DNA from: Ignavibacteria bacterium
GTDB lineage: Bacteria > Bacteroidota > Ignavibacteria > Ch128b
Direction of reading: 5' to 3'
Assembly: GCA_013177855.1 (NCBI GenBank)
Contig: JABLYA010000004.1
Coordinates: 1 to 54,813, forward strand
DNA: 54,813 nt
Part shown: piece by piece, positions 8,362-38,091 of the stretch
Layout of the letters: each line of letters opens with the position of its first letter
How positions within the stretch are numbered: the first letter of the stretch is position 1
Translations under genes and position numbers: made by a program
Notes under the pieces: model-generated
Databases searched by the model: none
The model's input: only the letters and a program-made list of their open reading frames with translations
Told to the model about the DNA's origin: nothing

Positions 8362-8395
8362 TCATAGGGAATGCTGTTAACAGCATTCCCTATGA
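8362..8395. repeat. Perfect 34-bp palindrome around TGCTGTTAACAGCA
   Basis: Every base from 8362 to 8378 pairs with 8395 back to 8379, with no loop. The centre is the genome-wide repeat in its full palindromic form. It overlaps the TAG stop of the VWA gene. As RNA it would be a very stable hairpin, but only a short T run follows on the minus strand, so it may be a DNA-protein site as well as, or instead of, a terminator. Confidence 0.85.
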
Positions 8396-9934: not shown

Positions 9935-9944
9935 AATTAACTCC

Positions 9945-12940: not shown

Positions 12941-14743
12941 TTAAATTACTATCCAATCCTCTACTTTTGGTGTATAGTAATCAAACCTTTTATTTGAATT
13001 AGACTTAAAGAAATTAATATCTATATTTGGAGGATAAATTACATTCCATAAAGCTACTTCCAAACTATCAGTACAGTCATCATTTTTAGCTTTTCTTAAA
13101 AATTCTAATTCATATTCTAACTGTCTGGTATCACATAAATGATATACTCTATATGCTTCATAGAAAGGTAGTAATGTTCTTTCAATTCTTTCAAATTTCT
13201 CTCCTTCACTTCTATTTTGTGGTCTAGCCACAATAGTTGTATATAAACCTTTAGAGATAAATACTCTTCTAGTTTCTTCTATAATTGCTCCTTCATGTCC
13301 TCCACCAAATCCTATTTTAATTCTCAAAGGTTTATATTTAACAGCAAGTCTATATAGTTCATCTATATAACCTTTTTGTGTATTTCTATCTCTTATAGAC
13401 ATTTTACCATAAACTTGTTCTAGAACTAATATTCTTTCGTCAGGAAGTATTCCTACAACAGTTATAGCTGTATTATCTCCTTCTAATTTACCTCCTGCTA
13501 TATCTACTCCTATTTCTATATTCATTATCATTGGTCTTTTATCTTTCTCTATTAACCAATAATATCCATATTCATATTTAATTTCATAGTCTTCTAACCT
13601 TTGAAAATATTCTCTGTTAAATCTCTTTAATTCTTGTGGTACCACTTCATGAAAATATTCTTGATAAAAACCAGCTATATTCTGATTTTCTATAGCTTCT
13701 TTGTATTTTAAGACTAATTCATATAATCCTACTCTATCACTCCATAATACTTTATATTTGTTTTCCAGGCTCTTAAAAAAGTTTCTTTGTTTTTCTATTT
13801 TAACAAATTCATCTTTTTCATCGTCAAATGGTAATTTTGCTATTCTCATATCTGTATTAACAGCAACATGTTCTGTAACTACCTTTTGAAAATCTAATAA
13901 ATCCATAGGATAAAACTTTAATGTTTTCCATGTATCTGATCTTTCACATTCTACAAGTACCGTATCTTCATGTACTATTGTACCTACTAAAAATACTTTA
14001 CCTAACAAATCATCTACTGAGTTAATAGCACTGTTATAAAACCATTTCTTAATACTTAATCTACTTTCTGCTGTTATCGTATTATTCTCCGAATATATAT
14101 CATCAAAGAAAGCAAATGTAGGTCTATAAGCACCTTTAATTCTACCTCTAGCCTGTTGTTTAGCACCAAATCCAGCTATAAAACAATTATTAATCTTAAA
14201 AGCTTTTTTAGTCCACTGTCCTGTAGTATCATCTACTGCCTCTTCTATAGTTAGCTTATAGAAGTATTTTAACATTGGATTAATTATAAACTCATCTCTA
14301 ATATTAACCACAAAATCTTCTGCCATTGTAGCAGTTTCTGAAAATATTACAATATATTTCTCATTAATTTTAACATCGAATACTTTACCATCTTCTGCTT
14401 TAATTTTCATTATTTGACCATTATGAGCCAGTAAATAGGAAACTAAACCAAATATTAATTTACTTTTAGCAAACCCTCTAAATGCTATAAGTTCTCTTAA
14501 TCTATGTTGTTTATTAATGTATCTGGGATCATATAATCTAAGTAACATCAATAATACCTGTATATGACCGCTGTTAAATTCATGTCTATAATGTTCTGGA
14601 TACATATATTTCAACCATTGTAATATACCCATATTTCTATCACAAGAAGTATTATCTAAAAATATACTCTCTTTATACTCTATAAAGTGTATTCTACATA
14701 AACCATCTTTAACAGCAAGTTTATTACAAAGTTTACAGGTCAT
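12941..14743 (-). CDS. terL: Terminase large subunit
   Basis: A 600-residue packaging motor. An N-terminal zinc-knuckle-like CxxC...CxxH (C3, C6, C16, H19) precedes the ATPase: Walker A AFRGFAKSK (residues 87-95) and Walker B FAFFDD. The RNase H-fold nuclease starts at IEIGVDIAGG, with acidic residues continuing in DNTAITVVG and the final DDCTDSLEVALWNV. TerL translocates DNA into the prohead and cuts the concatemer. The start overlaps the stop of the giant gene (ATGA), and its SD (GGAG) lies in the giant gene's last codons, so expression is coupled to it. Confidence 0.9.
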   Translation of the reverse strand: MTCKLCNKLAVKDGLCRIHFIEYKESIFLDNTSCDRNMGILQWLKYMYPEHYRHEFNSGHIQVLLMLLRLYDPRYINKQHRLRELIAFRGFAKSKLIFGLVSYLLAHNGQIMKIKAEDGKVFDVKINEKYIVIFSETATMAEDFVVNIRDEFIINPMLKYFYKLTIEEAVDDTTGQWTKKAFKINNCFIAGFGAKQQARGRIKGAYRPTFAFFDDIYSENNTITAESRLSIKKWFYNSAINSVDDLLGKVFLVGTIVHEDTVLVECERSDTWKTLKFYPMDLLDFQKVVTEHVAVNTDMRIAKLPFDDEKDEFVKIEKQRNFFKSLENKYKVLWSDRVGLYELVLKYKEAIENQNIAGFYQEYFHEVVPQELKRFNREYFQRLEDYEIKYEYGYYWLIEKDKRPMIMNIEIGVDIAGGKLEGDNTAITVVGILPDERILVLEQVYGKMSIRDRNTQKGYIDELYRLAVKYKPLRIKIGFGGGHEGAIIEETRRVFISKGLYTTIVARPQNRSEGEKFERIERTLLPFYEAYRVYHLCDTRQLEYELEFLRKAKNDDCTDSLEVALWNVIYPPNIDINFFKSNSNKRFDYYTPKVEDWIVI

Positions 14744-17700
14744 CTATGATAAATCTCCGATTTATCCAATCCCAATAAGTCATATTGTTTTTCTAATTCT
14801 TCTTCCCTTCTTTTTTCTCTTCTAGCTCTTTCAACTTCTCCCCTTTCACTATATTTAACTCTTCCATATGCTCCCAATGTAAAGATATTAAACATAAAAT
14901 CAGTAAAATCTACTGAATAATCTCCATATAGAGGATATAAATACAAACCAGTAAGTTCTTTAGAAAGTAATCCCATAAATCTATAATCAGCAAATCTATT
15001 AATACTTGTTACATCTTTAAATGCACTATATAGAGTTAGAAATGTTTGTACAGCTCCTAAATTAATATAACTATCAAATGCTTCCTTAACACTCTTATTT
15101 TTCATACTATCATAAGCAAACAATGCTAATGAAGTAGTTAAAGACATACCTAAACCACTAAATAAAGACATAAATGATATTAAAGCATACTTATCCCTGT
15201 TCTTTTTTCTAATAGCATACTTAATAGCTTTATCATATTCTTCCTTAATAGTTTCTAACATATATTCACTATCATATACTTCTCTTAATCTTACATATTC
15301 TTTGTATCTTTTTTCTAATTCTTTATCATCCTCAGGTTCTATAATATTATATACTGCAAATTCTAACAATGTAAACATAGTCAATAGTATTGGGTTCATA
15401 AACCATCTTATACCAGGTATTACAGCACCAATCATAAACATTAGATAATTAAATAACAGTAAATTAGTAAATTCTGCTGTAGGATTGTATCTTTCTTCTC
15501 TCTTGAAGAAATCTTTTAATAGCCTTCCTAATCCATAAGCTTTTATTGCAGCTTTATTTTCTTTACTTAAAAGTATAAAGTTAATCATCCTGTTATAATT
15601 ATAATGTCTTAACGCATGTAAAAATGCTCCTCTTTCAGTTTGACTGGCTACTACTCTATGTAAACTATCATATAAAGCATGATCTAATACTACTCCTCTT
15701 AATGCAAATTTAAGTGCCATATCAAAATTCTTAGTTAAATTATAAGCTTGTAAAAATCTGACATTAAATGATAATTGTCTAATAGAACCTTCTACTTCAT
15801 TAATATATTCAAGCCTTTTGTTAATAAATGTATCTCTTAAATACTTATGATATATGTAATGTGCATAATCTTTATCTACGTTATAAACTAATGCAAAATT
15901 ACCTTGATCAGCTAACTGTTTAAATAAACCGTAAATTTCATCCATTCTTTCTTTTAATTCTGGATCACTTTCAATTTTCCTAAATGTCTCATTTAACTCA
16001 AGTGCTGTTAAATCTACTTTCATTCTCAAATAATCTCTTATCTGACTTATTTCTTCTCTCTTCTGGACATATTCAAATGTATATTTTCCTTCTCTTTCCA
16101 GTTCTGGTAAAGCAAATCTTTGTTCAAGTATCTTGGTAAATTCATTTAACTGTCTTAATGCCTCTGTATAACTATCAGCATGTCTATTTAATCTCCTGGC
16201 ATTTCTTAAAGCTTGATACTGTGTCTTCCATTTAGTTAAAATGTTTTTATTATCAATCATATAGTCAAATATTTTATTTGTATCTATTTGACCACTGTAT
16301 AAAACATCAAGTAAAATATTCTGAGATATTTGAGATACAGAACCTAATGTCTTAAAGTATTTTGCTCTTTTCTCATCTTCTTTAAGTAAACTTGCTATTT
16401 GACTTGCTATATACTTATTGTTTTCTCTAATAAAGAAGTAACCTACTCTGTCTTCTCCAAGTTTAAATTTGGTACCTATTTTCTGTACCATTCTAGATTT
16501 ATATACGTTTAAAAAACCTCTAAATAATACAGACATACCTTCACCAAGCACAACTCTTATTAAATGCCATATTCTACCATTTCCTGGAAGACCACTTTTA
16601 TCTTTATCAGTCACTACTTCCACCATACCTGTTACCATATTACCACCCAGTTGCATAGCCATAAGTGTATTTCTATTAACTGTAATAGTTTTTTCTTTAT
16701 TTAATGTCATATAAGATAATTCTATATCATCACCATTTATTTCTTCTACTCTCATTCTTCTAACTATAAATGCATAATCTCCACTTTCTACAAATCCATC
16801 TTCTGCTGATGGTTCGTAATAAACTATAACGTCACCTACTTCTAATTCATCTACACTCTTTATAGTTGTATTTAATCTACTTGTAACTTCTTCTGATTTT
16901 AAGAACTCTTTTACTTTATTTCTTACATATTCATTTTCATACAACTCTGCATGTTTAAAGTAATTGATAGTATAATATCCTTTAATACTATCTTCTACTG
17001 TTGCTGTTAAATCACTTAACAGCGTCATATAACTTAATCTTAAATCAGATTTCTTTATATCAGTTAAATACTGATCAAATTGAGTATATAACAGTCCTGA
17101 TACTACTTTTTTATCTTTTAACTGTCTTATTAATCTTCTCCTAATTGAATTCCATTCACTTAAAAATTCTTCTGTATATTCTCCGTTTTCATCTCTTATT
17201 CTACCAGTTCTTTCTGTTTTAACAAATAAAGCTACTGCATAACTATAAGACACTCTCTCGATATACTCTTGTCTATTAAATGCCTTAGGTATATAGAGAT
17301 TAGACTTCAATACTACTCTATGTTTGTTCTTAACTTCACTTCCATAAGCTAATGTTTCGATTAATTTATTTAGTCTACGTATTTCATTACGTATATAAAC
17401 TATTTCACCCTTTGTAAGTTTACCAGTCTTCTCTAATGCTGTATAATATGCTTTACTTCTTGATAACAACTTTCTAAATTGAGTTACTACCCCTTTTAAG
17501 ATAAATGCATTAGTTAAATCCTGTCTTAACTTTTCTTTATCTCCTTTATATTCTTTATCTATAAACTCTTTAAGTTCTTGTAATTTACTTGCATGTTTTT
17601 CTAAATAAAACCTTAATGCATCTTTACTATTTAATCTTGTGAATGCATCTCTAAATGAAGAATTAAATGCTTCTGTTAGACTATCCATTTCAATTTCTTG

Positions 17701-20700
17701 ACCAGTTATATAATTTACTCTCATTAACTGATTTTCAAATGCTTTTATAAAGCTCTCTAATATTCTAACTGGGTCTTCTACGTCCATTCTTATATAATTT
17801 ATTTCTTCACTTGTACCTACAATTCTAAATAACTTAATTTGTACACCTTTATCTGTTTTTTCTATATCAAAAGTTATATATGGAAACATACCAATAAAAT
17901 CTAATAACTTTTCAGTCCTCTTTTCTTGTAATTCATATTCAGTATCTTCTTTAATAGTTCTCTGTTTACCAGCAGATGGGAATACTACATTCAATGCTCT
18001 AAATATAGTTTCCTTAAAACTACCTATTTCATTATTAAAACTACTTAATTTATAGAAGAACACATCTGTTAATGAATATAAATCTGGTCTTAAATATTGA
18101 TCTCCTATATGAGCAGCAGAACTTATAGCCACATCCATCATATCAAATAAGAAATCTTGAGGTTCTTCAGAATATTTATCAGTTATTTTAAAACTCATCA
18201 TCAAATCTTTAGGAAGTGTAGTATAAATACTAAATAGTCTATTAGAAAATATTCTAGCTTTAAGTAAAAATGTTCTCATCCAGGGATGCTTTAACATCTT
18301 TTCGAATGCTGTTAACTTTCTATCTTTTTCAATATAAAAAGATGTATAAAATGCAAGTAACCTATCTCTGTTATAATCTTGAGTTTCTTTATCTTGAGAG
18401 TCCTTATATGTTAATAAAAGCGTTCTTGCCTGTGCTTCTACATTATTCACATAGTTTGCGTCTTCTACACTATATTTAGCAGCAACTTGTGAAGCTAATT
18501 GTCTTATATCATTCAAAAATTCTTCTTCATTGAAATCTCCTTCTTCAAATGATTTTCTAAGAGCTTTTGGTTTATCATAGTATAAATCTCCTTCAGCTCT
18601 ATATTGATATGGGAAACTCTTTTTACCTTCATCTATACTCTTAACATTACTAACATTAACATATTCTGCATGTAATGGAGAAATTAACTTCACATCCATT
18701 TCTTGACTTTCAATATAATTGTTAATAGCAGTTGTAAAGATATTAGATAGTATTAATGCTCTTTCAAATACTCCACCTGTAATAATTGATAATCCTATCT
18801 CATTAATTTTATTACGTGGTGGTTCTATTCTAAGTGTTCTTACATCTCCTCCTTTAGATATCTGATAACTATATACTACTTTTACACTACTGTCAGGTAC
18901 AGGAGATATTAAAGCGGGTATCGATAAAACGGTATTTAAAAATACTTCTCTTGCTTCTTTATCCAGTTTTTTAATAAATGCATCATTCTTTACTAAAAAG
19001 TCTTCTATATATCTACTAGCCAAAAATACCTTCTTTTCTTCTGTTAGTTCTTTAGAACTTAAAGGTACGTAAATTTTTAAGTTTCCTAAGTTACTATTTA
19101 CTCTATCGAATTCATTAAAGAATTTATTAGCATCTGCCTGCCCCTGTTCTTTATCAATAGCAATCAAAGCGTCAGCATTATACTCATTCATATTTCTAAA
19201 TAAATTACCATTCTCTATTGTTCTAAGTATAGTTTTGTTCTGTCTATAACCAGTGAAATTGCTATAATCCGTTATAATTTTCTCTGCTATTAAATTATCT
19301 ATTAAACTAGATTTGTCTCTATCTGGTGCTTCACTGTTAAGTAAAATATTCTGTACAAGACTAGAAATTTTAGAAGTACCATCTTTTAATGTTTTATTAA
19401 AGTTAACAGCAGGTAGTAAATAGATTTTATTATCTCTAACATCTATTACTAACATATCTCCATTAGATGCTATTAACGAAAAATATTGTGAAAATGAAGT
19501 TCTAGTACCAGTAACTACACTCTGGGTACCTAAATTCTTTACAATATCTTCTACACTAATATTGTCTTCAAAGAATTTTTCTAATAAGTATTGACCTATT
19601 ATCTCAAAATCATGTAATCTATATTGATGTAATTGGTTTTTATTACCAAGATATAATAACTGTAGTGAGTTAATAAGCTCTACAATTCTTCTTACCATTT
19701 CCCCTTTTATTTTATTACTCTCTATCTTAGGAGATAAAGATAGTAAAAAGCTTAAATATGCTTCTGGATATTGTAATAGTTTAGCTAAACGATTATCAAA
19801 TCTACCTTCAATATCTAATACATCACTAATATTATAAGTTTGAGTAGATCCAGGTACTCTATAAAACCATGCTTCTGCAGGAGGTAAATAACTCAGTTTC
19901 CTACCATATCTTTTAGCTACTTCTAATACCTTAAATGCTTCATTATATACATCTGCTATAGCTTGACCTATGGTTCTTACTTTATTGCCTATTTCTAATT
20001 GTATTTTACTATTTAGTCCCATTGCTAATAACTTAATAAGATTTTTAGCATCATTTAATGGAGTAGATTTAGTCTTAGCCCATTCTTCTACTGCATTATA
20101 AAATGGTATCAAATAAGGTAATTTCTTCTTTGTATCTTCTTTAATTCTATCATATTCAGTTACAGTTCCACCACCTTTGTTTATTGACACTTTTACTTCA
20201 CCCAGTCCATACAGTTTTAACAGCTTTGTTAAAATATTAAATATAGCCCTATTAGCCAGTAATTGACCATATATTCTAACTATATCAGACAACTGTAATC
20301 TATCTAGTTCTATTTTGTCTATTGCCATTTCTAAATGCTCTCTTAACAGATTTGTTAACTTTTCTTTCATATTTGCTTCATCAGGCAACGTCTCTAAAAT
20401 ATTTTGCATCATTGTAAATAACTGTCCCTGTCTATTGGATATATGTAGAATAGGTAACTGTTTGACTAGTTTTTCATAATCTGCTGGAGAGAAATAAATC
20501 ATGTTAGTTATAGATATATCTTTTTTACTTCCATCAGAAAGTTTAAGAGTAATTAAATAGTTATTAAAATCTATAAATATTTCTTTTATTTCTCCTTTGT
20601 TCATACCAAGTATTTGCTCTAAGTTTCTTTTAAGAAATTCATTGGTATCTTTACTTCTAAGCTTACTTTTCATCTCTTTAAGTAATAGTTTAGCTAATTT

Positions 20701-23700
20701 ATGCATTATAGTAAGTTTATAAAGATCTCTACTACCTGATATATTGTTTAATCTTGGTATATTAAATGCAGTAGGTGTATTTATGGTAATTCTATTAAAG
20801 TCTCTATAATTAAGCGAATCTGAAGGTTCATGACCAGGAGTATTTTCAATTTCAGCATCTCCTTCTCCTAATTTTCTATTTTTCAATTTTCTAAACAATA
20901 TTGCTGCTTCAGATAAATAAAAGAACTTATTATCATTTTTAGGGAAGTCCACATTATCGTTGGTTGCTATTAACAGCATAAGTAATTTTCTATTCCAGTC
21001 TTCTAATATAAGATCATCTTGATTTACTACTGTTCTATACATAAATATTTCTCTTAGCCTAATAATAATACCAATATTCTTTTCATACATTGCTGATACT
21101 TTTATAGCTTCAAAATCTAGTGGATGGAAATAAGCACTTTCTTTTTCTGAAGACATAAGTAAGAAAGGATTAGCTCCTAAATACACTTGCATCCATCTTA
21201 ATCTATTATGTTGACTAGATATCAAGTCCATTTTCTCATAGAATTCTTCTGTTCTTTTAAGATTACTAAACTCTTTTTGAATATTTCTTTTAACTTCTTT
21301 TATTTTCTCTATATATGGTGTAGCTCTTTGTTCTATTTCTCTAAATAGTATCCCTTTGTACGTACTAGATAGCTCTTTTAAAAACTCAATATTTTCTGAG
21401 TGATTAGATATAGCTTCTATAAAACCTTCGAAAGTATTAGAAGGTATATTTACTTTATCTTTAACAGCGTTATATACTGCTTTTAACTGTTCAATAACAT
21501 ATTCATATTGCATTTTTAAAGAAGGATCATTAGAATCTGCGTATGTAAGTTTTGTTGCAATAGCTTGATAATTACTTTCTACTATCCATCTTTCTACATA
21601 TCTTTTACCACCTTCAAACATTTCGCCTTTAATTCTATTGTATATATATTCTCTTTCATATTCACTTGGTTCTAAAAAATTTTCATCTTGAGATACTCTT
21701 GTAAAATCTTCATACATAATATCGTATAAATTATCTACAAATCTTTTTACCTGTTGTTCTAATATCATTGATACATTAGCCCACCTAGCCTTTTCTTTGG
21801 GATTATCAAATGCTTTATAAATAGTATAAATAACGTCTATATCATAATCTCTACCAGCAAGTCCTTGAGCATATTCAGAGTTCATTATCACGCTCTGCAA
21901 TGGTACAATACCTTCAGGTAAAAATGCTAATACTCTAGAACCAGTCATAGAAGCTTGACTATCAGAAGGAATAATATATTGAATTACTCTTTCATTAGGA
22001 ATAAATTCAAATTCTTTACCTTTGTTTTTAGGATTATAATAATCACTCATTGCATCTATAGAATAAACGGTATATCCATAACCTAAACTATAATCACTAG
22101 CAAAATAATATTGCCATATTTGATGTTGATTTAATTTACTTTCTCTTAGTTTATTAATTAATTCATCATATACTTTTAACAGCTCATTGTTTAATTCTCT
22201 GTAATAATCCACTGTGTTTTTAGTCTCTTTGCTACCATCTCTTTTAGTTATTTCTAATACTTCAGCAGTATTGTTTCTAAGAAGTGCTAGTGCAGTAGCT
22301 ACATCCAATGTTAATTTTCTCATTTTCTCATATAAATCTTTATTTTCTTCTAAGAAATTATATAAATCTGGAGCTTCTTCTTTTAATCTAGGACTTCTAC
22401 CTAAAAGTCTAATAGTAGCTACTTTAATAGCATCTGTTACATAAGGAGTTGTAATAGGAGTTAATACAGACACAAATCCTTTCTGTCCAGCTTTTCTAGC
22501 AGTCCTAAACTTAGAGTTTAAATAATGAGCAAGTAAACCAAATATTGGATATAAATGGTTCATGTAAATTAGCTGATCTTTGATTTTTTGAATAGTAAGT
22601 AGTTTAGTTTCTAAACTATTACCTTTAATTATTTCTGCTAGTTCACCATATGTAGAAACTTCTGGATCAATATTATTAGCTATTGTATCTAGTAATGGTA
22701 CTAATATATCATGACCATATTCTTCTTTATCTTCATATGTGCTGTTAAGAAAGTTAAATAACTCTATTAATCTTGCTTTATTACTGTTATCTCCAGTAAT
22801 AAATCTTTCAGTAAACTCTTTTATAGGTTCTTCATATAAAGAACTCATATAATCTTGAAGTATTTTAACAGCATCTACACCAGAGACTTTCTTAATCTTA
22901 AATGTTTCTTCATCTATTATCGAATATTCCATTTCTTCTGAATAAGATGGATTAAGATTTATTAATATACCAGTGGTATTAAGTAATTGAGATAAACCTT
23001 TTACTTCTTTTACTGTAGAAGCTCCTTCTTTATTTCTATGTATATCTCTCAGTTTAATTAAATATGTCTTTATAGAACTTGAGTTTAATGCATTTTCTAT
23101 ACTATCATAATAATGCAACTCTTTTAACTTATGTTTTTCAGCTTCATCAGATATTACCAGTCCTATACCTTTCTCTTCTAATGCTTGGTTTATTGGATCA
23201 TTCTTAGCAAAGTAATACATAGCATGTTTTAGATATAATCCATCTTCTCTATTATAAACATAATTTTTCAACGCTCCTCTTAATACTCCTCCCTGTATTT
23301 TTCTAATGAAGTTAATTGTTCTAAAAGTACCCATTGTAGCACCGTCTAAAGTAGATATACCTACTTTATTAACTCTTTCTCCCTTTTTAGTTCTTATGAA
23401 TATAGCTCTTATATATATCTCACCATCTTCACCTATGAAATATGGTTGATTTACATCTGTTGTTGCTGTTAATTCTTCTTGTTCAAATAATGGATCAGCT
23501 AATGATACTAATTTCTCATTAATAGACAAATACTCTTTATTCATCATTTCTGGACTATATAAGCCTCCTATTTTAGCAGAAGTCATAATATGTCTTTTAT
23601 AAAGCTCTATAATGTTAATAGCAGTATCATTACGAAGTAGTCTTGTACTAGACTTAGATATATCATCTAATGATTTATATTTAGCTCCTAATTTCAAATC

Positions 23701-26700
23701 TTCTAACAAAGTTCTAAATGCTATAGATACCATTAAAGATAATTCACCAGAAGTTAATTCTCCTTCTTTAGTTAATTCTTCTTTTAATGTTTGATTATAT
23801 ATTTGATTAGCTAAAAATCTTAATGAATTAGTACTACTTAAATAATGTTTAGAAATATAATCCAATAAAGTACCCACAGTAATAGTTTGAACATTAGGAA
23901 ACGAAAATGCTACAATGGTATAATTAATATCTTTATAGTCTAAGACTGCTGTTAAAATTGTTTTAGCACTTTTACTTATATCTGATTTAGCTATAAGAAC
24001 TCTTAACTGTTGTTTAATCTCCTGTAGATTACTGTCATTTTCAATAACTTGTGTACCCATTTTCTCTTTTAATTGCCCTACTACATTCTTAACTTCTTCT
24101 AATACTTTATCAGTATCTAAAGATATAATATTCTCAAGTATATTTATATATTGGTTTATTCTCTTTTCTAGTTTATCAATGATTTCTGGACTAATATTTA
24201 ACGTATATAGATATGCTCTATAAACTTTTAACATTTTAACAGCAAACTTTAGTAGAGATACTTTATCATTAAATCTAAGTAAAGGAACTGTATTCTTGTC
24301 AGCAAAATGTCCAAAATATACTGTATTAGCACCATTAAATAACTGTCTTACCATTACATTTATTTTATCTACTATTTCATTTAGAAATACTGGCTGAACT
24401 ACTTCTTTTTTAGCAGGAGTATAACCTTCTTCTATATCTGATGTAACCTCTTCTAAAAGTGCTTCTAGCTCTTCTTCTTCTGTTGTACGTTTAAATCCAG
24501 GCTTTACTATTTCACTTAACTGCAATACTTCAAAATCATTTGCTGTTAAACCAGTTAAACTCAATATTTCGGGTAAAAAGTCTAAAAACTGTATATATTC
24601 TCTTACAGTATTTATTCTAGCCTGTTTAGAATTTGTACTACCAGCACCTTTAATTTGTAAACTAAATATATTATTTGAAGGATCATATCTAATATCAGCT
24701 AATTTATAATCATAAAAACTACCAAGTTTTAAGAACAATTCTGCAATTTTACCCCTTGCAAGTAATTTTAATGTAGAAGCAAATGAATAATCATAATGTA
24801 TAGCTTTTTTAATGTATTTTATTAATGCTCTATGTCTTTGATTAGTTAAATATTCAAATAATATTGTAAATGTTACTTTTCCAAGTCTTATATAATCCAT
24901 TAATTTTACACTTTTCTTAACATCTCTATAAGATTTATCTATCTCCATTAAAATTTCTATTAATTTCATTATACTATTAGGAGTAATACCAGATATATAT
25001 CCTTCATCTTTTAATCTTAGTTCTTCACTTTCCTCTTCTAAACTCTCTTCCATAGGAAAATTAAATAATTCCTCTTTTTGTATTAATAACGAAACTATAT
25101 TCTCAAATTGTTTTAATTTATCTTCTGTTTCATCTAATTGCTGTTTAAGTGCATTTAAAAATGAACCATCTTCTATTTTCTTTAAGTATTCTTCTGCTTT
25201 ATTAGTTTTAATGGTATTTATTAAGTTTTTAAATATATCATCAGATAACATAGCTTGTTCTATTTCTTCTATACTTGCTCCACGTTCTATTAACTCTTTT
25301 ACCGAATTATATGTTGGCACAAAGATACCTACATCCATATCTTCTATTTGTGTAGCATCAACATCACCACTTTTTTTACTTGTACTGTTTCCTGTTTCAA
25401 CATTACCATTTCCTATTTCTCTTTTATTTAACTCTTCTTGTGTTGTAGGATTAGATATCTTTTGTTCTTCTTTGTCTATTTCTGCTGTTACTGTTTTTAT
25501 GGTACCCTTAGATATCTGTCTAATATTACTTTGTTTAATTCCTAACAATTCATCTAATGTTTGTTTTGCTAATAATTCATAAACTACAAAATCTGCTTCT
25601 ATTGATATTAATATTGTATTTAACTGTTTAAGTAAGTTATTATCTACTTTTACTTTAAGAAGTTTTTCTAGATTTCTTATCACTTCATACATTAACTTTG
25701 AAATAATCATTCTAAATTGTCTAAATAGATTATTTTTCACAGTTTTAGATAGATTAGTTTCTATATTATTTAATGGATTAAGTACATACATTAACTGCAC
25801 AAGTAATTCATCTGTTTGAGTGTAAATAGAAGTTAATATTTCATCCCAACTTTCATTTACTCTATTATTTTCCCATTTAAATACCGCTTCTAAAAATCTA
25901 CTTTCCTGTATATCTTGTATTAGTTGTACTAATACTCCTTTAACTTCTTTTTTAACAGCATCTCCAAATAGATAACCTTTACTAATCAATATTTCAAGTG
26001 CATCTTTAGGACTATTGTTTTTAATTATCTCATATACTTCTGTAAGTCTGTCAGTTACTTTCATTAAATCTTTTGTATAAGTTAAACTAGTATTTTTCAA
26101 TATATTACTTGAAGTAAGTAAAGCATGTCCTAATTCATGTCTTAATATTCTATGTAATTTACTTAGTATATATCTATCTGGAATACTTCCTGATGCATAT
26201 TTCTCATTTACTACAACAGAATTATCACTAGCTCTATAATAAGCTACTTCATCTATTTTCTCATATTTTACTACTACTCCTAGTTTATTAAACAGTTCTA
26301 GTAAATTAAAGAAGTTATAGTAATCAGATAAATTTCTGTCTATTTCATTCTCGTTTTCAGGATAAAGTTCTGGATCTTCATCATTTTTTTGTTCTATGGT
26401 TTTATCAGAAGTTCCATAATCTTCTTCTGTATTTAAAAACAAGTCAACGTCAATTTCATTTTTTTCTTCTTTGTTTTCTTCCTCTCCTTCTTCTTTTTTT
26501 TCTGTTGATATTTCTTCTATTAATGTCTCTGCTTGTGCTGTTAAATCTTTATCTTGTTTTTCATTTGGTGTTTCTGTTTCTTGTTTTTCTTTTTCTCCTT
26601 TATATTTTGCTATATACACTAAAACATCAGCATAAGTAACCTTTTTCCTATCAACAATTTCATCCATAATAAGACGCATCAATCTTGACAGCGAGGTGCC

Positions 26701-29700
26701 TATATTTTCTAAATCACCATCATAGATACTACTAGCAAATGATTTTATTTCATCTAACAAAAACGCAAGCTCATATAACTGTTCGTCTTCTAATTTACTT
26801 AAAAAGTTTTCTCGTATATATTCTTTATTTTTAGCACCATAATTAGAAGTAAAAACATGTAAATAATGTTCATAAGGTGCTGTTAAGATATTATTTAATT
26901 GATATGTACCCCCATCTTGTATTTCTAATTCTTTTACTCCTTCTTTGTTTACTCCTGTACCTTTCTTACTATCAATATATGTATAATAAATTTTACCATT
27001 TTTATCTCGGTATCCTTCTTCTATAAGAACAGCATTAAATACTACTGTTCTAGCTGTAGGAGAAATATGAGTTGCTTTTTCGAAAGTTATATTTTTAAGT
27101 CTTTCATATATTAATCCACTAGCAGCTTTAGATACATATCCAGGGCGAAATCTATCCAATATTAAAAGCTCATATAGAAAAGCTTTTTCAGGATCAAATA
27201 CTAACTTTAATACTCCATTTTCTTCCTTTAATTCAGCAGTTGCTATTAACGAGTATTGCTTTGTATTTTTAACTTCAAAAGTAACATTTACTTCTTTGTC
27301 TCCTATTTTATAAGTTCTTTGTATTTTAACAGCACCTTTTTTATTGGCTTCCACTTTCAAGATTTCTTTAAATGTACTACCATCTTCATCAGAAACCTCT
27401 TTAGAATATTTATTTAATGTCACTGTTTTTAATGTCTTAGATTTTTCAGGATCTTTTAATAAAAGTTCAAGTCTAGCTCTTGCATATTTTTCAAAATCAG
27501 CATACGGTAATAGCATTGATAAAAATGACCTATACGCTTCTTCGTTGTTTTTAAATATTTCTAACTCCTCTAACCATTTACTACCCTCTATTAATATTTT
27601 TGCAGCTTCTCTCTGTAATTCTATACGTTGAATAAGTCTTTTATTAGTTTCTGAGGGAGGTTCATTTTCTATAAATCTACTAAGTTCATAATAATACTCT
27701 TTTATTCTTTTATTTATTTCTTCTTCTCTATCAAAATCATAAGTACCCGTAGAACCAAATGTTTCATTTAGTACTCCTAGCAAATAATTTTCTAATTTGC
27801 CAATTTTAGGTGCTTCTTCTTCTTTTATATTTTCTTGTTCTTTTACATTTTCTTTTTCTTGAACAGAAGCTGTTGGTATTGTACCTGTATTAATACCATT
27901 AACAGCATCTTTGACAACCTTTTCAATTTTGTTTCTTTCATTCTGAGTATTGTCCTGAGTATTGTCTCCTTCTTTCTTACCTTCATTTTCGTCTTTATTT
28001 TTTTTCTCTGCTTTAACCTTTTCCTGTTTTGCTTTCTCTACTTTTACTTTTTTAATTATTCCACTTATTTTATTTCTTACTTCTACACGTTTAGCTATAA
28101 AATCATAATCTTTAACATTTGTTGGATCCAATTTACCAATTACAATATCATCTATAACTGTAAATAATTCAGCTATATTTGTTAAAGTTTCTAATATAGC
28201 TTGTTCTTTAATTCCCATTTCACTCATTATTTTAGCAGCATTCTCTAATGCTGTATACACAGAAGGCATTCTACTTTCATTAAGCCCCTGTACAAGTCTA
28301 ATCATAAAAAGATCAGATAGTATTGTAAGTAAAGAATAATCGTCTACAGAAGCTAGAAAAGGTAATTTCATTCTAATAACATTTTTGAAAAACTGATCAA
28401 GTCTATCGTAATTAAAACCTTCTATTAATACAGAAGTTTTCTTTCCAGTTTGATCCTTAGATAATGCTACTGTAAAGTCTCCAAAGAATTTCTTTAATAA
28501 TTCAACAACTTTATTAAACTCTTCTTTATTACCTTTGAAAAATATATTGTATATTAATACAGCTGAAATTTGTCTTTCTAATCCGTATTCAAGAGGAGTT
28601 ATAAGTCTACCTTTAGGAGTTTTATCTTTACCTTCATAAGCATCACGAAATATTTTGTACTGTTGAACTTCCTTATGATTAATTCTAAAAGTCCATATGA
28701 TAAGTCTCGAAAGCGTATCTGCAGCTGTTTTTAATACATTAGCATCATCGGTTTCAGATACTGTTTTAACTGCATCTAAAAAAGCTTCTTCATCTACACT
28801 TAAAGTATTAGGATTTTTATCATGTAAAGTATCTAAAAACCTTAAGACATATTCTAAGAGAGGTGTAGTATATTCTGCACTTTTATCTTCATACTGTTTT
28901 AATTTGTCATTTACCTTTTTTATAATCTCCTGATTTCCTTCAGTAACTCCTATATTATTCCCATCCGTAACTATTTCATCTACTAATTTATTGATTTCTA
29001 TTACAGCTTCGGTACGTTTTTTATTTGTTTCTTCTAATTTCTTTTTCCTTTCTGTTTCTGCTTCTATTTCTTCTTTAGATTTCTCTTTTGGAGGTACTTG
29101 TTCTTTTTCAGGTTTTACTTCTACAGTTCCTTTTTTAGGTTTACTAGCTTCATATTTACCACTAATAAAGTCTCTTACTTTTTTATTAAGACTAGCTACG
29201 CTTTCTATTAAACTCACCACATAAGCATCATTTAAATCTCCTATTTTAAAGAACATAGTAAAGTTCTTAAACATACTTTTACCTATTTCTTCTATTTTCT
29301 TTATTGCGTCTTTATCTTCATTAGCCATTATTTTCTTTATTCTTTCTTTAATAGCTTTCTTTACATCTTCATCTATTTTACCATAGTTTTCAAAATACTC
29401 TAGAAGAAAATCAGCTAACGCATCATTAGCCTCTTCTCTCATTTTTTCATACTTGTTATTTATATTTCTTCTAAAATCCAATAACCTGTTCTTTTCTTTT
29501 TCTACTCTTTCTTTTACTTCTTTTTTTACTTCTATTCCTTGAAGTTTTTTCTCCAACCGTGCTATTAACCCTTCTACCTGTTCTACAATTTCTAAATCTT
29601 TTTCCATCATACTGTCTATATAATCCAACTTAGCTCCCTGTACAACTTTCTCTAATCCTAATTTGGCTTCCAAATCATCAGTAGTTAAAGTGTTGTACAA

Positions 29701-32325
29701 TTTAATAGCAGCTCTTCTTAAAGCTAGTCCATTTAAATCATTAGCTTTTACTGTTGCCTTACTTAATGCTTTTAATATTTGTAATTTTTTAGCTTTAACT
29801 ATTTTAATAGCTTTTCTAGTATCTGCATTGTTTAATTCATTTAATGCTTTATCATATTCTTCTATAATCTGATTTAGTTCTGATGTTTGATATTTTTTAT
29901 TTATCTCTTTAACTAACTCAAGTAACAGTTGATATTTATCTAAATTAGAAAACTCTATTGCTGCATATTCTTCTAATTCTTTATGATTTTGTTTAACATA
30001 TTGCAGTAAATTTCTCTGTAATAATAACGGATTAATAGTATAACTACCTTTTAATGTTTTAAATGAAGTAAATGATAAACTTTGAGCAGTAATTTTATCA
30101 AGATCTAAGTTATCAGCCCAATAAGAATAATCTTGCCACATTTTCTGTAATTTTTCTTTATTCTGATCATTTAATTCTATCCCCAATCCATAAGACAAAA
30201 TTATTAAATCTTCTTCGTCTAATTTATTTAATTCACCTGCTTCTAAATATTTTCTCATATATAATTCACTAAGAAGTCTACCAGCTTCTTTTATAAAGCT
30301 TCCCTTTTTGCTATCTTCTATTCCCAATTGATCAGTAAAATCTTTAATACCTTCCCAGTTCTCTAATTCTTTGGTTGTAAAACTATTTGCAATAGCTTCT
30401 GCAAGTCCGTCAATTAATTCTGGTTTTTTATTAAATAACTCTGTCAATTCTCTAAGTCTTTGTATTCCTCTTTCTCCCCCAAATTGTTTTCTAATCTGTT
30501 CACGCTTTTCTGTAATAACTTTATCTTCACCTAACTTAGCTGCTGTACTTAAAAACTCTTGTAATGCCTGTAATCTTATAGTCATTCTTTCTGATAAAGA
30601 TAAATCTTTTCTAGTTACTCCTTTTCCTTTTTTATCTTCTATTAATTTATTTTCTAGTTCAAAAAACTCATTTGCTAAATTTCCAAAGTTTCTTATTATA
30701 CCTTGATCACTTTGATCATCTGCAAATCCCGCAATCGAAGCTACTACTTTTTGAGTGCTATTAACAGCAGGTTGTCCTGTTGATGCTAAATCGTATAATC
30801 CATCTGCTATTACTAAAAATCTGTTTTTTCTTAAAAACTCTAAAGCGAATTCTCCTATTTTCTTTGCTTCTGTAATTTGATTAATACTTTTACCTATAGC
30901 TGACATTCCTAAATGAAAACTACCAAATAATGCTGATAACAATAAAGCATCCTTTTGAGCTTCACCCCACTTAAAAAATGGTCTATCTTCTCTACCTGTT
31001 ACATTAAAGAAAGAAGTATCTGTACCTTTTGCTAAATCCTGAGCCATATTAGTTATTTCTTCAGTAGCAATATTAACAAAGGTATTGTATACCATATCTC
31101 CCATTTTTTTAGCAGCTTCTTTTGCAAAAAATTTCTTACCCAAGATACTTAAAGGAGAACCTTCTACTAACATTACTTCACTAACATACTCTAGCTGTCT
31201 ATTTAAGAATATATCATAAAACCAGGTTCTCTGATCTTTAGGAGTTTCAAAATAATCTCTTACACCCGCAGGAGTTTGATATATCATTGATTTTATAAAT
31301 TCATCAGCTATACGTCTAGTATACATTGGAATTGATTTACCAAATGCCTTAAAAGTAGCTCCTATAAATGAATTAGCTGCTCTATATTCTTTGAATAATG
31401 TACCAAACGTTTTAGCCCCAGCACTAAACTTTGTAGGAGATGGAAGAAACATTGCTGGTACCATAGATAGCGACAAACCAGCCATATCAGAAAGATTAGC
31501 CATATCATATAAATTAAGTCCCAGCCCTATTTCCTTTTCTTTTAACTTAGATATTTCGTCTACATTCTTCTTTACTGTATTTTTATACCATTCCTTATTA
31601 GTAACTTCAGGGAATAATTGAGATACGGCATTAACTGTCTGTAATATTTCTTCTTCATTAACTAAACCCAATGGTTTTGTAGTTACATTTGTAGATAAAG
31701 GTATAGTTTCTATTACTCCTTTAGCAAAACCCATTGTAAGACGTGATAGAAAAGTGTCAACACCAAAGTTCTTTAAATGCTCTTTATATCTATCAAGGTA
31801 CCTATTATTAGCAAGAAAATAACCCTGTAATACTGCTTCTGATTTTTCAGGAAATGTTTGCAAGTGTTCGTTAATAGCATCCACATCCTTAGTACTTAAT
31901 ATTTTTTGTAAATCTTCATTATTTTTTTTAACAGCATCTCCTATGACTGGATAACTTTTAATTCTGTCTATTAATATGTCTAAATCAGGAAAATCATCAT
32001 CTACCTGTAAAGTATACTTGCTATTAACATATGTAGGATAAACTCCAAGTTTTTTATTTTTAATATTAAAAAACTCTTCTTCTACTTTATCTACCTGAGC
32101 AGCGAAATCAGATACTTGTGAAATTCTTGGAAAAGCTTTATCTAGTTCTTCTATTGTAGGAAATTTTCTTTTATTATATGTAATCTCTGCTAAAAGTATT
32201 CTTGCTTTATAATCACTTAAAAAATATTTTTCTTTTAGAAAGTTAACAGCAGAAAGTACACTATTATTATTGGAAGTTAACATTAAATTAGTAAGTTCGC
32301 TTTTAGTAAATACTCGTTCTGGCAT
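14740..32325 (-). CDS. Giant 5861-residue virion protein with RNA-polymerase-like motif
   Basis: One uninterrupted frame covers nearly a third of the window, with AGAGGAG before MPERVFTKS. Visible parts in order: a helical N-terminal region with hydrophobic stretches near residues 290-310 and 460-485; coiled coils about 550-1050; charged low-complexity linkers near 1060-1110, 1430-1515, 1900-1995, 2275-2340 and 2610-2640; HELGH at 2063-2067; GRDYDID at 3491-3497 within a conserved-looking block; a long C-terminal part with membrane-like helices after 5615. The DYDID block resembles the DFDID-type motif of crAss-like phage virion RNA polymerases. The position between internal virion genes and TerL fits a protein ejected with the DNA. 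RNA polymerase activity is inference. Confidence 0.8.
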   Translation of the reverse strand: MPERVFTKSELTNLMLTSNNNSVLSAVNFLKEKYFLSDYKARILLAEITYNKRKFPTIEELDKAFPRISQVSDFAAQVDKVEEEFFNIKNKKLGVYPTYVNSKYTLQVDDDFPDLDILIDRIKSYPVIGDAVKKNNEDLQKILSTKDVDAINEHLQTFPEKSEAVLQGYFLANNRYLDRYKEHLKNFGVDTFLSRLTMGFAKGVIETIPLSTNVTTKPLGLVNEEEILQTVNAVSQLFPEVTNKEWYKNTVKKNVDEISKLKEKEIGLGLNLYDMANLSDMAGLSLSMVPAMFLPSPTKFSAGAKTFGTLFKEYRAANSFIGATFKAFGKSIPMYTRRIADEFIKSMIYQTPAGVRDYFETPKDQRTWFYDIFLNRQLEYVSEVMLVEGSPLSILGKKFFAKEAAKKMGDMVYNTFVNIATEEITNMAQDLAKGTDTSFFNVTGREDRPFFKWGEAQKDALLLSALFGSFHLGMSAIGKSINQITEAKKIGEFALEFLRKNRFLVIADGLYDLASTGQPAVNSTQKVVASIAGFADDQSDQGIIRNFGNLANEFFELENKLIEDKKGKGVTRKDLSLSERMTIRLQALQEFLSTAAKLGEDKVITEKREQIRKQFGGERGIQRLRELTELFNKKPELIDGLAEAIANSFTTKELENWEGIKDFTDQLGIEDSKKGSFIKEAGRLLSELYMRKYLEAGELNKLDEEDLIILSYGLGIELNDQNKEKLQKMWQDYSYWADNLDLDKITAQSLSFTSFKTLKGSYTINPLLLQRNLLQYVKQNHKELEEYAAIEFSNLDKYQLLLELVKEINKKYQTSELNQIIEEYDKALNELNNADTRKAIKIVKAKKLQILKALSKATVKANDLNGLALRRAAIKLYNTLTTDDLEAKLGLEKVVQGAKLDYIDSMMEKDLEIVEQVEGLIARLEKKLQGIEVKKEVKERVEKEKNRLLDFRRNINNKYEKMREEANDALADFLLEYFENYGKIDEDVKKAIKERIKKIMANEDKDAIKKIEEIGKSMFKNFTMFFKIGDLNDAYVVSLIESVASLNKKVRDFISGKYEASKPKKGTVEVKPEKEQVPPKEKSKEEIEAETERKKKLEETNKKRTEAVIEINKLVDEIVTDGNNIGVTEGNQEIIKKVNDKLKQYEDKSAEYTTPLLEYVLRFLDTLHDKNPNTLSVDEEAFLDAVKTVSETDDANVLKTAADTLSRLIIWTFRINHKEVQQYKIFRDAYEGKDKTPKGRLITPLEYGLERQISAVLIYNIFFKGNKEEFNKVVELLKKFFGDFTVALSKDQTGKKTSVLIEGFNYDRLDQFFKNVIRMKLPFLASVDDYSLLTILSDLFMIRLVQGLNESRMPSVYTALENAAKIMSEMGIKEQAILETLTNIAELFTVIDDIVIGKLDPTNVKDYDFIAKRVEVRNKISGIIKKVKVEKAKQEKVKAEKKNKDENEGKKEGDNTQDNTQNERNKIEKVVKDAVNGINTGTIPTASVQEKENVKEQENIKEEEAPKIGKLENYLLGVLNETFGSTGTYDFDREEEINKRIKEYYYELSRFIENEPPSETNKRLIQRIELQREAAKILIEGSKWLEELEIFKNNEEAYRSFLSMLLPYADFEKYARARLELLLKDPEKSKTLKTVTLNKYSKEVSDEDGSTFKEILKVEANKKGAVKIQRTYKIGDKEVNVTFEVKNTKQYSLIATAELKEENGVLKLVFDPEKAFLYELLILDRFRPGYVSKAASGLIYERLKNITFEKATHISPTARTVVFNAVLIEEGYRDKNGKIYYTYIDSKKGTGVNKEGVKELEIQDGGTYQLNNILTAPYEHYLHVFTSNYGAKNKEYIRENFLSKLEDEQLYELAFLLDEIKSFASSIYDGDLENIGTSLSRLMRLIMDEIVDRKKVTYADVLVYIAKYKGEKEKQETETPNEKQDKDLTAQAETLIEEISTEKKEEGEEENKEEKNEIDVDLFLNTEEDYGTSDKTIEQKNDEDPELYPENENEIDRNLSDYYNFFNLLELFNKLGVVVKYEKIDEVAYYRASDNSVVVNEKYASGSIPDRYILSKLHRILRHELGHALLTSSNILKNTSLTYTKDLMKVTDRLTEVYEIIKNNSPKDALEILISKGYLFGDAVKKEVKGVLVQLIQDIQESRFLEAVFKWENNRVNESWDEILTSIYTQTDELLVQLMYVLNPLNNIETNLSKTVKNNLFRQFRMIISKLMYEVIRNLEKLLKVKVDNNLLKQLNTILISIEADFVVYELLAKQTLDELLGIKQSNIRQISKGTIKTVTAEIDKEEQKISNPTTQEELNKREIGNGNVETGNSTSKKSGDVDATQIEDMDVGIFVPTYNSVKELIERGASIEEIEQAMLSDDIFKNLINTIKTNKAEEYLKKIEDGSFLNALKQQLDETEDKLKQFENIVSLLIQKEELFNFPMEESLEEESEELRLKDEGYISGITPNSIMKLIEILMEIDKSYRDVKKSVKLMDYIRLGKVTFTILFEYLTNQRHRALIKYIKKAIHYDYSFASTLKLLARGKIAELFLKLGSFYDYKLADIRYDPSNNIFSLQIKGAGSTNSKQARINTVREYIQFLDFLPEILSLTGLTANDFEVLQLSEIVKPGFKRTTEEEELEALLEEVTSDIEEGYTPAKKEVVQPVFLNEIVDKINVMVRQLFNGANTVYFGHFADKNTVPLLRFNDKVSLLKFAVKMLKVYRAYLYTLNISPEIIDKLEKRINQYINILENIISLDTDKVLEEVKNVVGQLKEKMGTQVIENDSNLQEIKQQLRVLIAKSDISKSAKTILTAVLDYKDINYTIVAFSFPNVQTITVGTLLDYISKHYLSSTNSLRFLANQIYNQTLKEELTKEGELTSGELSLMVSIAFRTLLEDLKLGAKYKSLDDISKSSTRLLRNDTAINIIELYKRHIMTSAKIGGLYSPEMMNKEYLSINEKLVSLADPLFEQEELTATTDVNQPYFIGEDGEIYIRAIFIRTKKGERVNKVGISTLDGATMGTFRTINFIRKIQGGVLRGALKNYVYNREDGLYLKHAMYYFAKNDPINQALEEKGIGLVISDEAEKHKLKELHYYDSIENALNSSSIKTYLIKLRDIHRNKEGASTVKEVKGLSQLLNTTGILINLNPSYSEEMEYSIIDEETFKIKKVSGVDAVKILQDYMSSLYEEPIKEFTERFITGDNSNKARLIELFNFLNSTYEDKEEYGHDILVPLLDTIANNIDPEVSTYGELAEIIKGNSLETKLLTIQKIKDQLIYMNHLYPIFGLLAHYLNSKFRTARKAGQKGFVSVLTPITTPYVTDAIKVATIRLLGRSPRLKEEAPDLYNFLEENKDLYEKMRKLTLDVATALALLRNNTAEVLEITKRDGSKETKNTVDYYRELNNELLKVYDELINKLRESKLNQHQIWQYYFASDYSLGYGYTVYSIDAMSDYYNPKNKGKEFEFIPNERVIQYIIPSDSQASMTGSRVLAFLPEGIVPLQSVIMNSEYAQGLAGRDYDIDVIYTIYKAFDNPKEKARWANVSMILEQQVKRFVDNLYDIMYEDFTRVSQDENFLEPSEYEREYIYNRIKGEMFEGGKRYVERWIVESNYQAIATKLTYADSNDPSLKMQYEYVIEQLKAVYNAVKDKVNIPSNTFEGFIEAISNHSENIEFLKELSSTYKGILFREIEQRATPYIEKIKEVKRNIQKEFSNLKRTEEFYEKMDLISSQHNRLRWMQVYLGANPFLLMSSEKESAYFHPLDFEAIKVSAMYEKNIGIIIRLREIFMYRTVVNQDDLILEDWNRKLLMLLIATNDNVDFPKNDNKFFYLSEAAILFRKLKNRKLGEGDAEIENTPGHEPSDSLNYRDFNRITINTPTAFNIPRLNNISGSRDLYKLTIMHKLAKLLLKEMKSKLRSKDTNEFLKRNLEQILGMNKGEIKEIFIDFNNYLITLKLSDGSKKDISITNMIYFSPADYEKLVKQLPILHISNRQGQLFTMMQNILETLPDEANMKEKLTNLLREHLEMAIDKIELDRLQLSDIVRIYGQLLANRAIFNILTKLLKLYGLGEVKVSINKGGGTVTEYDRIKEDTKKKLPYLIPFYNAVEEWAKTKSTPLNDAKNLIKLLAMGLNSKIQLEIGNKVRTIGQAIADVYNEAFKVLEVAKRYGRKLSYLPPAEAWFYRVPGSTQTYNISDVLDIEGRFDNRLAKLLQYPEAYLSFLLSLSPKIESNKIKGEMVRRIVELINSLQLLYLGNKNQLHQYRLHDFEIIGQYLLEKFFEDNISVEDIVKNLGTQSVVTGTRTSFSQYFSLIASNGDMLVIDVRDNKIYLLPAVNFNKTLKDGTSKISSLVQNILLNSEAPDRDKSSLIDNLIAEKIITDYSNFTGYRQNKTILRTIENGNLFRNMNEYNADALIAIDKEQGQADANKFFNEFDRVNSNLGNLKIYVPLSSKELTEEKKVFLASRYIEDFLVKNDAFIKKLDKEAREVFLNTVLSIPALISPVPDSSVKVVYSYQISKGGDVRTLRIEPPRNKINEIGLSIITGGVFERALILSNIFTTAINNYIESQEMDVKLISPLHAEYVNVSNVKSIDEGKKSFPYQYRAEGDLYYDKPKALRKSFEEGDFNEEEFLNDIRQLASQVAAKYSVEDANYVNNVEAQARTLLLTYKDSQDKETQDYNRDRLLAFYTSFYIEKDRKLTAFEKMLKHPWMRTFLLKARIFSNRLFSIYTTLPKDLMMSFKITDKYSEEPQDFLFDMMDVAISSAAHIGDQYLRPDLYSLTDVFFYKLSSFNNEIGSFKETIFRALNVVFPSAGKQRTIKEDTEYELQEKRTEKLLDFIGMFPYITFDIEKTDKGVQIKLFRIVGTSEEINYIRMDVEDPVRILESFIKAFENQLMRVNYITGQEIEMDSLTEAFNSSFRDAFTRLNSKDALRFYLEKHASKLQELKEFIDKEYKGDKEKLRQDLTNAFILKGVVTQFRKLLSRSKAYYTALEKTGKLTKGEIVYIRNEIRRLNKLIETLAYGSEVKNKHRVVLKSNLYIPKAFNRQEYIERVSYSYAVALFVKTERTGRIRDENGEYTEEFLSEWNSIRRRLIRQLKDKKVVSGLLYTQFDQYLTDIKKSDLRLSYMTLLSDLTATVEDSIKGYYTINYFKHAELYENEYVRNKVKEFLKSEEVTSRLNTTIKSVDELEVGDVIVYYEPSAEDGFVESGDYAFIVRRMRVEEINGDDIELSYMTLNKEKTITVNRNTLMAMQLGGNMVTGMVEVVTDKDKSGLPGNGRIWHLIRVVLGEGMSVLFRGFLNVYKSRMVQKIGTKFKLGEDRVGYFFIRENNKYIASQIASLLKEDEKRAKYFKTLGSVSQISQNILLDVLYSGQIDTNKIFDYMIDNKNILTKWKTQYQALRNARRLNRHADSYTEALRQLNEFTKILEQRFALPELEREGKYTFEYVQKREEISQIRDYLRMKVDLTALELNETFRKIESDPELKERMDEIYGLFKQLADQGNFALVYNVDKDYAHYIYHKYLRDTFINKRLEYINEVEGSIRQLSFNVRFLQAYNLTKNFDMALKFALRGVVLDHALYDSLHRVVASQTERGAFLHALRHYNYNRMINFILLSKENKAAIKAYGLGRLLKDFFKREERYNPTAEFTNLLLFNYLMFMIGAVIPGIRWFMNPILLTMFTLLEFAVYNIIEPEDDKELEKRYKEYVRLREVYDSEYMLETIKEEYDKAIKYAIRKKNRDKYALISFMSLFSGLGMSLTTSLALFAYDSMKNKSVKEAFDSYINLGAVQTFLTLYSAFKDVTSINRFADYRFMGLLSKELTGLYLYPLYGDYSVDFTDFMFNIFTLGAYGRVKYSERGEVERARREKRREEELEKQYDLLGLDKSEIYHR
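14870..15480 (-). other. Hydrophobic C-terminal segments of the giant protein
   Basis: Residues about 5617-5655 (LLLFNYLMFMIGAVIPG, then WFMNPILLTMFTLLEFAVYNII), about 5713-5742 (FMSLFSGLGMSLTTSLALFA), 5751-5770 and 5805-5818 are long enough and hydrophobic enough to span a membrane. A strongly charged tail follows. In an ejected virion protein these could form or anchor a conduit in the cell envelope. Confidence 0.5.
17003..17023. repeat. Close inverted pair of the octamer inside the giant gene
   Basis: GCTGTTAA (17003-17010) and TTAACAGC (17016-17023) face each other across five bases, forming a potential 8-bp hairpin within coding sequence. The arms are read in different codon phases. Confidence 0.8.
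21835..21849 (-). other. DYDID, putative RNA polymerase metal-binding motif
   Basis: Encodes D3493-Y-D3495-I-D3497. The preceding residues include PSDSQASMTGSRVLAFLPEG and GLAGR, and VIYTIYK follows. Three alternating aspartates in a GxDxDxD setting are the hallmark of the double-psi-barrel catalytic loop (DFDGD in cellular beta-prime; DFDID-type in crAss-like virion polymerases, from memory). Confidence 0.6.
26125..26139 (-). other. HELGH zincin motif in the giant protein
   Basis: Encodes H2063-E-L-G-H2067 in the helix context LHRILRHELGHALL, the classic HExxH metallopeptidase signature. A third ligand was not identified. It lies between two charged linkers (about 1900-1995 and 2275-2340), so it looks like a separate domain. 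Confidence 0.65.
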
Positions 32326-37124: not shown

Positions 37125-37514
37125 TCACTTCTTATACTCCTTAATAATCTTTTCAGCACTTCTACCTACAACATATCCACCAAGTCCTATTTGAAGCAAT
37201 GTCCATGCTTCATTTGATAGTCTATAAGCTAATATTCCTAAACTATCTAAAACTACAAGTATAAGAAATGTTAACATAGTAATTGGTCTCCAATTTCTCT
37301 GTATCCAGGATTGTCCTTGAGCTTCTGCAGTGATAATAGTTTTTTGAGCTTCCACTAATTGAGTTTCTAATTCGATTAACTTACTTGTAATTTCATTTTC
37401 TAATTTCTTTAACTCTATTTGTGCTTTTAGTCTTTCTTCATCAGTAGTAGTTAAATTATTTATTATATCTCCTATAGGTTTAATAGCATTTGTAATTGTA
37501 TCCCATATTGGCAT
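37125..37514 (-). CDS. Holin, GTA 3TM type
   Basis: A 129-residue protein. An N-terminal amphipathic region and a coiled coil (residues about 25-65) precede the pattern QSWIQRNWRPITMLTFLILVV, a second hydrophobic stretch, and EAWTLLQIGLGGYVVGRSAEKIIKEY. This is the layout of the GTA_holin_3TM family (PF11351), which makes membrane holes for the endolysin. The muramidase gene is directly upstream, so the two form a lysis cassette. The family is mostly from Gram-negative hosts. SD is weak (GGAGT). Confidence 0.8.
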   Translation of the reverse strand: MPIWDTITNAIKPIGDIINNLTTTDEERLKAQIELKKLENEITSKLIELETQLVEAQKTIITAEAQGQSWIQRNWRPITMLTFLILVVLDSLGILAYRLSNEAWTLLQIGLGGYVVGRSAEKIIKEYKK

Positions 37515-38089: not shown

Positions 38090-38091
38090 AA

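Follow-up and report, generated by a model that had tools for sequence, protein, structure and literature searches.

A giant phage protein from an Ignavibacteria assembly with a crAss-type catalytic block: a probable virion-carried RNA polymerase outside Crassvirales

Does a protein of 5,861 residues, encoded on a phage contig associated with Ignavibacteria, contain an RNA polymerase (RNAP), and does the phage carry it in its particle? The original prediction had read a DYDID motif inside this protein as the catalytic block of a crAss-like virion polymerase. The window, that is, the whole stretch of DNA that we analysed, is one entire contig (C4) of 54,813 bp from a 3.66 Mb assembly of 10 contigs, and a search of it for a terminal repeat found none. 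The predicted single reading frame with its DYDID proved to be clean, and we place it on the minus strand, which had not been specified:

14740..32325, minus strand: giant protein, candidate ejected multidomain virion protein, 5,861 codons with an ATG start

No internal stop interrupts this frame and AGAGGAG precedes the ATG, in keeping with the strong SD code described for the phage, which we confirmed as an AGGAG-like motif ahead of 40 of the 50 ORFs. We rejected misassembly as the cause of the ORF size, given that a single frame is open throughout, that it has an SD start and that proteins of like size exist. The size claim, which put the giant at about double the length of known virion polymerases, did not hold, as crAss-like relatives reach 6,386 aa and gp96 of phage P23-45 has 5,002. 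Crass-like RNAP proteins in GenBank measure 4,070-4,774 aa, the cr272_1 protein has 6,386 codons, and the LMMB protein is already labelled an RNAP fusion in its database record. Under table 11, many in-frame stops interrupt the cr272_1 gene (L022:1-18714), which fits the recoding of TAG that has been reported in crAss-like phages.

The evidence for a polymerase lies in a short region in the middle of the chain:

21790..21990, minus strand: DPBB-A region, the putative catalytic double-psi barrel of a two-barrel RNAP (residues 3446-3512), from HMM and hhalign matches
21835..21849, minus strand: DYDID, the expected metal-binding motif (residues 3493-3497), aligning with the DFDID of the phi14:2 RNAP (PDB 6VR4)

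The motif sits within GLAGRDYDIDVIY (residues 3488-3500, window 21826-21864) and is preceded by PSDSQASMTGSRVLAFLPEG (residues 3453-3472, window 21910-21969). Where phi14:2 gp66 (the 6VR4 sequence) has YRIPNQGQSSNDPLQIVGILPEAMGDTIVAYTEIPTKTGSDFDIDKMY, the giant has YIIPSDSQASMTGSRVLAFLPEGIVPLQSVIMNSEYAQGLAGRDYDIDVIY, and both follow the order IP..S..(V/I)..(F/I)LPE.......G.D(Y/F)DID.(I/M)Y. Residues 3446-3512 matched an HMM of 13 crAss-type cores with E=1.3e-6 and one of 88 cores, most of which came from IMG/VR, with E=1.6e-7; the best of 200-400 shuffled sequences reached only E=0.04-0.09 (0.037 for the 88-core HMM), and several hundred real ORFs gave no match comparable to that of the giant. 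The 88-core HMM matched the biochemically proven P23-45 RNAP less well than the giant (E=0.11). Alignment by hhalign to crAss RNAP alignments gave Prob 72-90% and E about 1e-5 over 60-65 columns. A DPBB-A with DxDxD in its conserved context is thus present in the giant by HMM, above both shuffles and real ORFs, and the likeness to the crAss-like catalytic block extends beyond the pentapeptide. The bare DYDID is not itself diagnostic because the string occurs in unrelated proteins: IMG/VR holds many G[RS]DYDID matches in unrelated tail-fibre-like proteins. We also observed a phage protein family with EAARGxxSGSDYDID repeats that has DYDID without an RNAP context (loci L027, L031, L036, L040, L047, L053, L059, L061, L064, L067-L069 and L071). 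The reading of the motif as that of a polymerase is probably right.

Beyond this block, similarity to known polymerases fades. Searches with full-length crAss RNAP HMMs gave no match to the giant, and the significant alignment covers only about 65 residues. Two further stretches can be proposed:

23125..23250, minus strand: tentative second block (residues 3026-3067), collinear with the conserved upstream K...S..K.G block of crAss-like RNAPs
22444..22545, minus strand: tentative last strand of DPBB-B, around LLAHYLNSKFRTARKAGQKGFVSVLTP (residues 3261-3294), from an alignment that is not significant alone

The first of these scored 23 in hhalign, against at most 20.8 in 120 shuffles and 22.9-23.1 in other windows of the giant; more generally, the regions flanking DPBB-A matched crAss RNAPs weakly and not beyond chance windows of the giant. 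An HMM of the DPBB-B block did no better on the giant than on shuffles, and DPBB-B, bridge helix and trigger loop were not demonstrated there. Of the two double-psi barrels that might be expected, only DPBB-A is supported by sequence. A single-sequence AlphaFold model had no usable fold (pLDDT 34.7), and a model guided by 58 crAss-like rows reached medium-low confidence (pLDDT 58.9). The guided model places strands, helix and loop in the order E-E-E-helix-DYDID loop-E over residues 3446-3502 and a further strand at 3277-3286, inside the candidate DPBB-B stretch. Foldseek against the PDB returned 6VR4 as its best match, weakly (E=0.09, prob 0.84, large r.m.s.d.), and the matches listed after it were nearly all two-barrel RNAPs, cellular and phage; in a viral library it returned crAss-like proteins (best E=4.2e-5). 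The guided model is consistent with an RNAP fold; it is not independent proof of that fold, because its alignment rows were crAss-like.

Two other features of the chain bear on how such a polymerase might be used:

26125..26139, minus strand: HELGH, a zincin-type metallopeptidase motif (residues 2063-2067)
15118..15465, minus strand: putative transmembrane helices close to the C-terminal end (residues 5621-5736), from a hydropathy scan

HELGH is the single HExxH located 1,430 residues upstream of DYDID. In crAss-like giants HExxH also comes first, at 1,358-1,663 residues from DxDxD (cr55_1, cr50_1, cr60_1, cr10_1, L029, L151, L155, L160, L172, L176, L181 and L198), and an HExxH at about this distance (1,350-1,670) arose in 0.3% of shuffled giants. 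Glutamates lie downstream of HELGH (for example in DEILTS), and a crAss zincin HMM found no match in this region. Residues 5621-5736 form the main cluster of hydrophobic segments in the protein. Because a zinc-protease motif, a crAss-type RNAP core and membrane helices seem to be joined in it, the giant is probably a virion-carried polymerase.

The genes around the giant place it among structural and packaging functions. On the minus strand, the order runs from portal, scaffold-sized gene, probable capsid, connector-sized genes, LamG-bearing fibre protein, endolysin and holin through a 770-aa protein and proteins of 243 and 536 aa to the giant, and on to TerL, RNase H, MoxR/vWA and primase-helicase. 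The main landmarks are:

48969..50966, minus strand: P22-type portal (PF16510, E=6.7e-30; phrog_156, E=3.7e-34)
46423..48057, minus strand: probable major capsid, from its position after portal and scaffold
37523-38110, minus strand: GH108 endolysin (PF05838)
37125-37514, minus strand: holin (phrog_3427, PF11351)
32354..33964, minus strand: 536-aa protein upstream of the giant, noted for position and size
12941..14743, minus strand: large terminase subunit, encoded immediately after the giant (phrog_38, E=1.2e-52)

The portal, which is of P22 type, and the TerL that immediately follows the giant bear out the podovirus-like gene order that had been proposed. In crAss001 and in two genomes discussed below (G427 and G031), a gene for 480-534 aa lies upstream of the giant in the position that the 536-aa gene has here; Pfam and PHROG scans assigned its product to no convincing family, and the capsid candidate matched neither Pfam nor PHROG. 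Distant matches of the terminase include one in Alteromonas AD45, an N4-like phage. We considered membership in Crassvirales and rejected it, as the hallmark families are unmatched: the phi14:2 reference families are phrog_6681 for TerL, phrog_6547 for portal and phrog_11589 for capsid, the last also found in crAss001, and Crassvirales-type capsid, portal and terminase were not matched here (portal phrog_156, TerL phrog_38). One Crassvirales trait, the giant transcription-block protein with a DxDxD RNAP, is present, as one fused giant. Judged by these families, the phage is not detectably one of the Crassvirales.

Several observations concern the contig at large. A MoxR-type AAA ATPase (PF20030) adjoins a vWA-like protein with a weak DUF2201 match (window 8390-10886). 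The 313-bp gap between divergent genes at window 5071-5383 is a candidate early control region; it adjoins 5384-6178, the one gene on the plus strand that is convincing. A candidate promoter, TCTAGATACWATAW, showed no excess (100 occurrences vs 86 expected), and no promoter motif was found. Across window 1-54813, the octamer GCTGTTAA, usually as TGCTGTTAA, has 72 copies on both strands against 2.2 expected, and GCTATTAA has 44 against 5.5. These repeats are distributed along the contig with a mean spacing of 752 bp and fall in several reading frames, and TGCTGTTAA is sparse on the main host contigs; the octamer is a phage-specific DNA signal.

The assembly itself is one of Ignavibacteria by its marker sequences, with RpoA 79-83% identical to those of Ignavibacteria MAGs and a 16S that resembles Ignavibacteria as judged by eye. 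Its recorded contamination is 3.33%, and G+C deviates in some of the smaller contigs. Since the phage contig is present in the same assembly, we infer that the phage infects the Ignavibacteria organism assembled with it.

Relatives were sought widely. The giant, scanned in pieces, matched no convincing Pfam or PHROG family, a result that says little because the known phi14:2 RNAP also lacks a PHROG. The RNAP region found no match by tblastn in 50,697 phage records or by scanning of genome contigs, and phmmer against the PDB gave none; searches of IMG/VR with the TerL, the RNAP region, the motif alignment and the G427 giant recovered no relatives, and nothing besides the source itself turned up in 395 genomes from the phylum or in 6 from the family. 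Two genomes are informative through gene order. G427, of the same class, encodes a 4,518-aa giant with a relative of the window's TerL just downstream, so that the order of giant and terminase is alike in both. Its giant has HEYLH at 1240 and a DHDGD motif, IPADAPHSTKACVIAGV...LGKDHDGDALYV, at 2358; its upstream region matched a crAss RNAP profile with E=0.005 and its barrel matched P23-45 gp96 over 31 residues with E=0.003, while direct alignment with the window giant gave no match. The gene lies in a prophage-like region (contig C50, L074:2771-16324), in a contig stretch of 59% G+C. G031 (contig C48, L104:921-8111) has a similar gene order and a 2,397-aa zincin giant with HEIGH and without a DxDxD RNAP block, which suggests that the polymerase is optional.

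We compared the giant with the phi14:2 virion RNAP (gp66 in the literature, Phi14:2_gp077 in KC821624, PDB 6VR4) and with other Crassvirales RNAPs. Like them, it has the IP..S...(F/I)LPE...G.D(F/Y)DID block; as in the fused crAss-like forms cr50_1, cr10_1 and cr60_1, where the distance is about 1,400-1,500 aa, a zincin motif lies upstream; and neighbouring genes are of similar size. The giant differs in being detectably similar in the DPBB-A block only, in uniting everything, candidate membrane helices at the C-terminal end included, in a single chain of 5,861 aa, and in the portal, terminase and capsid families around it. Flavobacterium phage Fpv1 (Fipvunavirus), not classed in Crassvirales, likewise has DYDID in a virion protein, of 4,401 aa; that protein clearly resembles the phi14:2 RNAP by tblastn (E=1e-21), whereas the giant shows no such similarity, and its HExxH follows the RNAP instead of preceding it. 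The N4 (Schitoviridae) virion RNAP is likewise a giant protein, found in the virion, and has a zincin-like domain, for which HELGH would be the counterpart here. Unlike the double-barrel type proposed here, the N4 enzyme is a T7-like single-subunit RNAP. An autoproteolytic role, either within the head or once the protein has been injected, has been proposed for its zincin domain (PMC5512222). A further parallel is gp96 of the Thermus phage P23-45, a 5,002-aa tape measure protein with an N-terminal RNAP, a metallopeptidase and membrane regions that was found in virions by Western blot (PMC10770324). The giant, presumably a virion protein as well, combines a two-barrel RNAP motif with candidate peptidase and membrane regions, and the motifs of the two share an NxEYAxxxGxDxDxD-like pattern. 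In gp96, however, the RNAP is N-terminal with DFDGD and the tail is very long, whereas in the giant it is central with DYDID (at residue 3493 of 5861) among podovirus-like genes and without recognised long-tail genes, so that the traits of a P23-45-type tape-measure fusion are absent.

Taken together, we consider it likely that the giant is an ejected virion protein whose middle (about 3000-3900) is a single-chain two-barrel RNAP of crAss-like/P23-45 type. A tape-measure-like or ejection protein with a vestigial, inactive barrel, kept for structure or left from an ancestral fusion, would account for the fact that DPBB-A alone is recognisable while adjoining crAss RNAP blocks are not significant, and the G031 giant implies that the backbone works without a polymerase. 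We nevertheless think decay unlikely, given that the three aspartates and the IP..S and G.D positions are kept though the rest has diverged beyond recognition, that G427 retains a DHDGD version, and that the gp96 RNAP is active despite being equally hard to recognise by sequence (PMC10770324). To a chance or convergent motif in a giant structural protein lacking the RNAP fold we give a very small probability: tail-fibre-like proteins do contain similar strings and the structure model depends on the crAss alignment, but the match spans 65 residues at E=1.6e-7 and the zincin motif stands at a conserved distance.

The remaining question is where the polymerase would act. We infer its presence in the virion from gene position and from relatives, and for that reason an enzyme made late to transcribe late genes inside the cell has to be weighed. 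We regard this as the least probable reading, since the gene lies inside the structural block, between the tail/lysis genes and the terminase, and since MS/MS annotation for phi14:2 and a Western blot for P23-45 (PMC10770324) place related giants in the virion. Under the reading that we prefer, of an ejected polymerase, the giant would be packaged in a podovirus-like particle and enter the cell together with the DNA or ahead of it. There its RNAP core, probably completed by a second barrel, would be catalytically active and transcribe the early genes of the phage independently of the host RNAP. The C-terminal membrane segments may help to form a passage through the host envelope, and the zincin-like motif may serve processing by cutting the giant chain.

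The suggestion that this is a new lineage of ejected polymerase stands in part: neither the head nor the packaging genes belong to Crassvirales families and the assembly is from Ignavibacteria, but the kind was already known. Most likely, we are dealing with a variant of that kind, an ejected two-barrel RNAP whose core is of crAss type and whose phage, associated with Ignavibacteria, lies outside Crassvirales. It is a tentative further possibility that Crassvirales and the P23-45 group are joined by a third group with double-barrel virion RNAPs, made up of phages of Ignavibacteria and their relatives that have P22-type portals and phrog_38 terminases. In that group one zincin giant ejection protein would have gained or lost cores (DYDID here, a P23-45-like DHDGD in G427, none in G031). 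The simplest reading, as a suggestion from three examples, is that the carrier protein is one and the same while its polymerase core can be exchanged.

Both crAss-like phages and the P23-45 group are documented to have double-barrel virion RNAPs, enzymes that are relevant to how cellular and RNAi polymerases arose. The union of crAss-type catalytic residues with non-Crassvirales shell genes points to the ejected polymerase as a module that passes from one phage lineage to another and for which giant zincin-bearing ejection proteins may be the usual carrier, and related giants with and without a polymerase in one bacterial class provide a system in which this can be tested.
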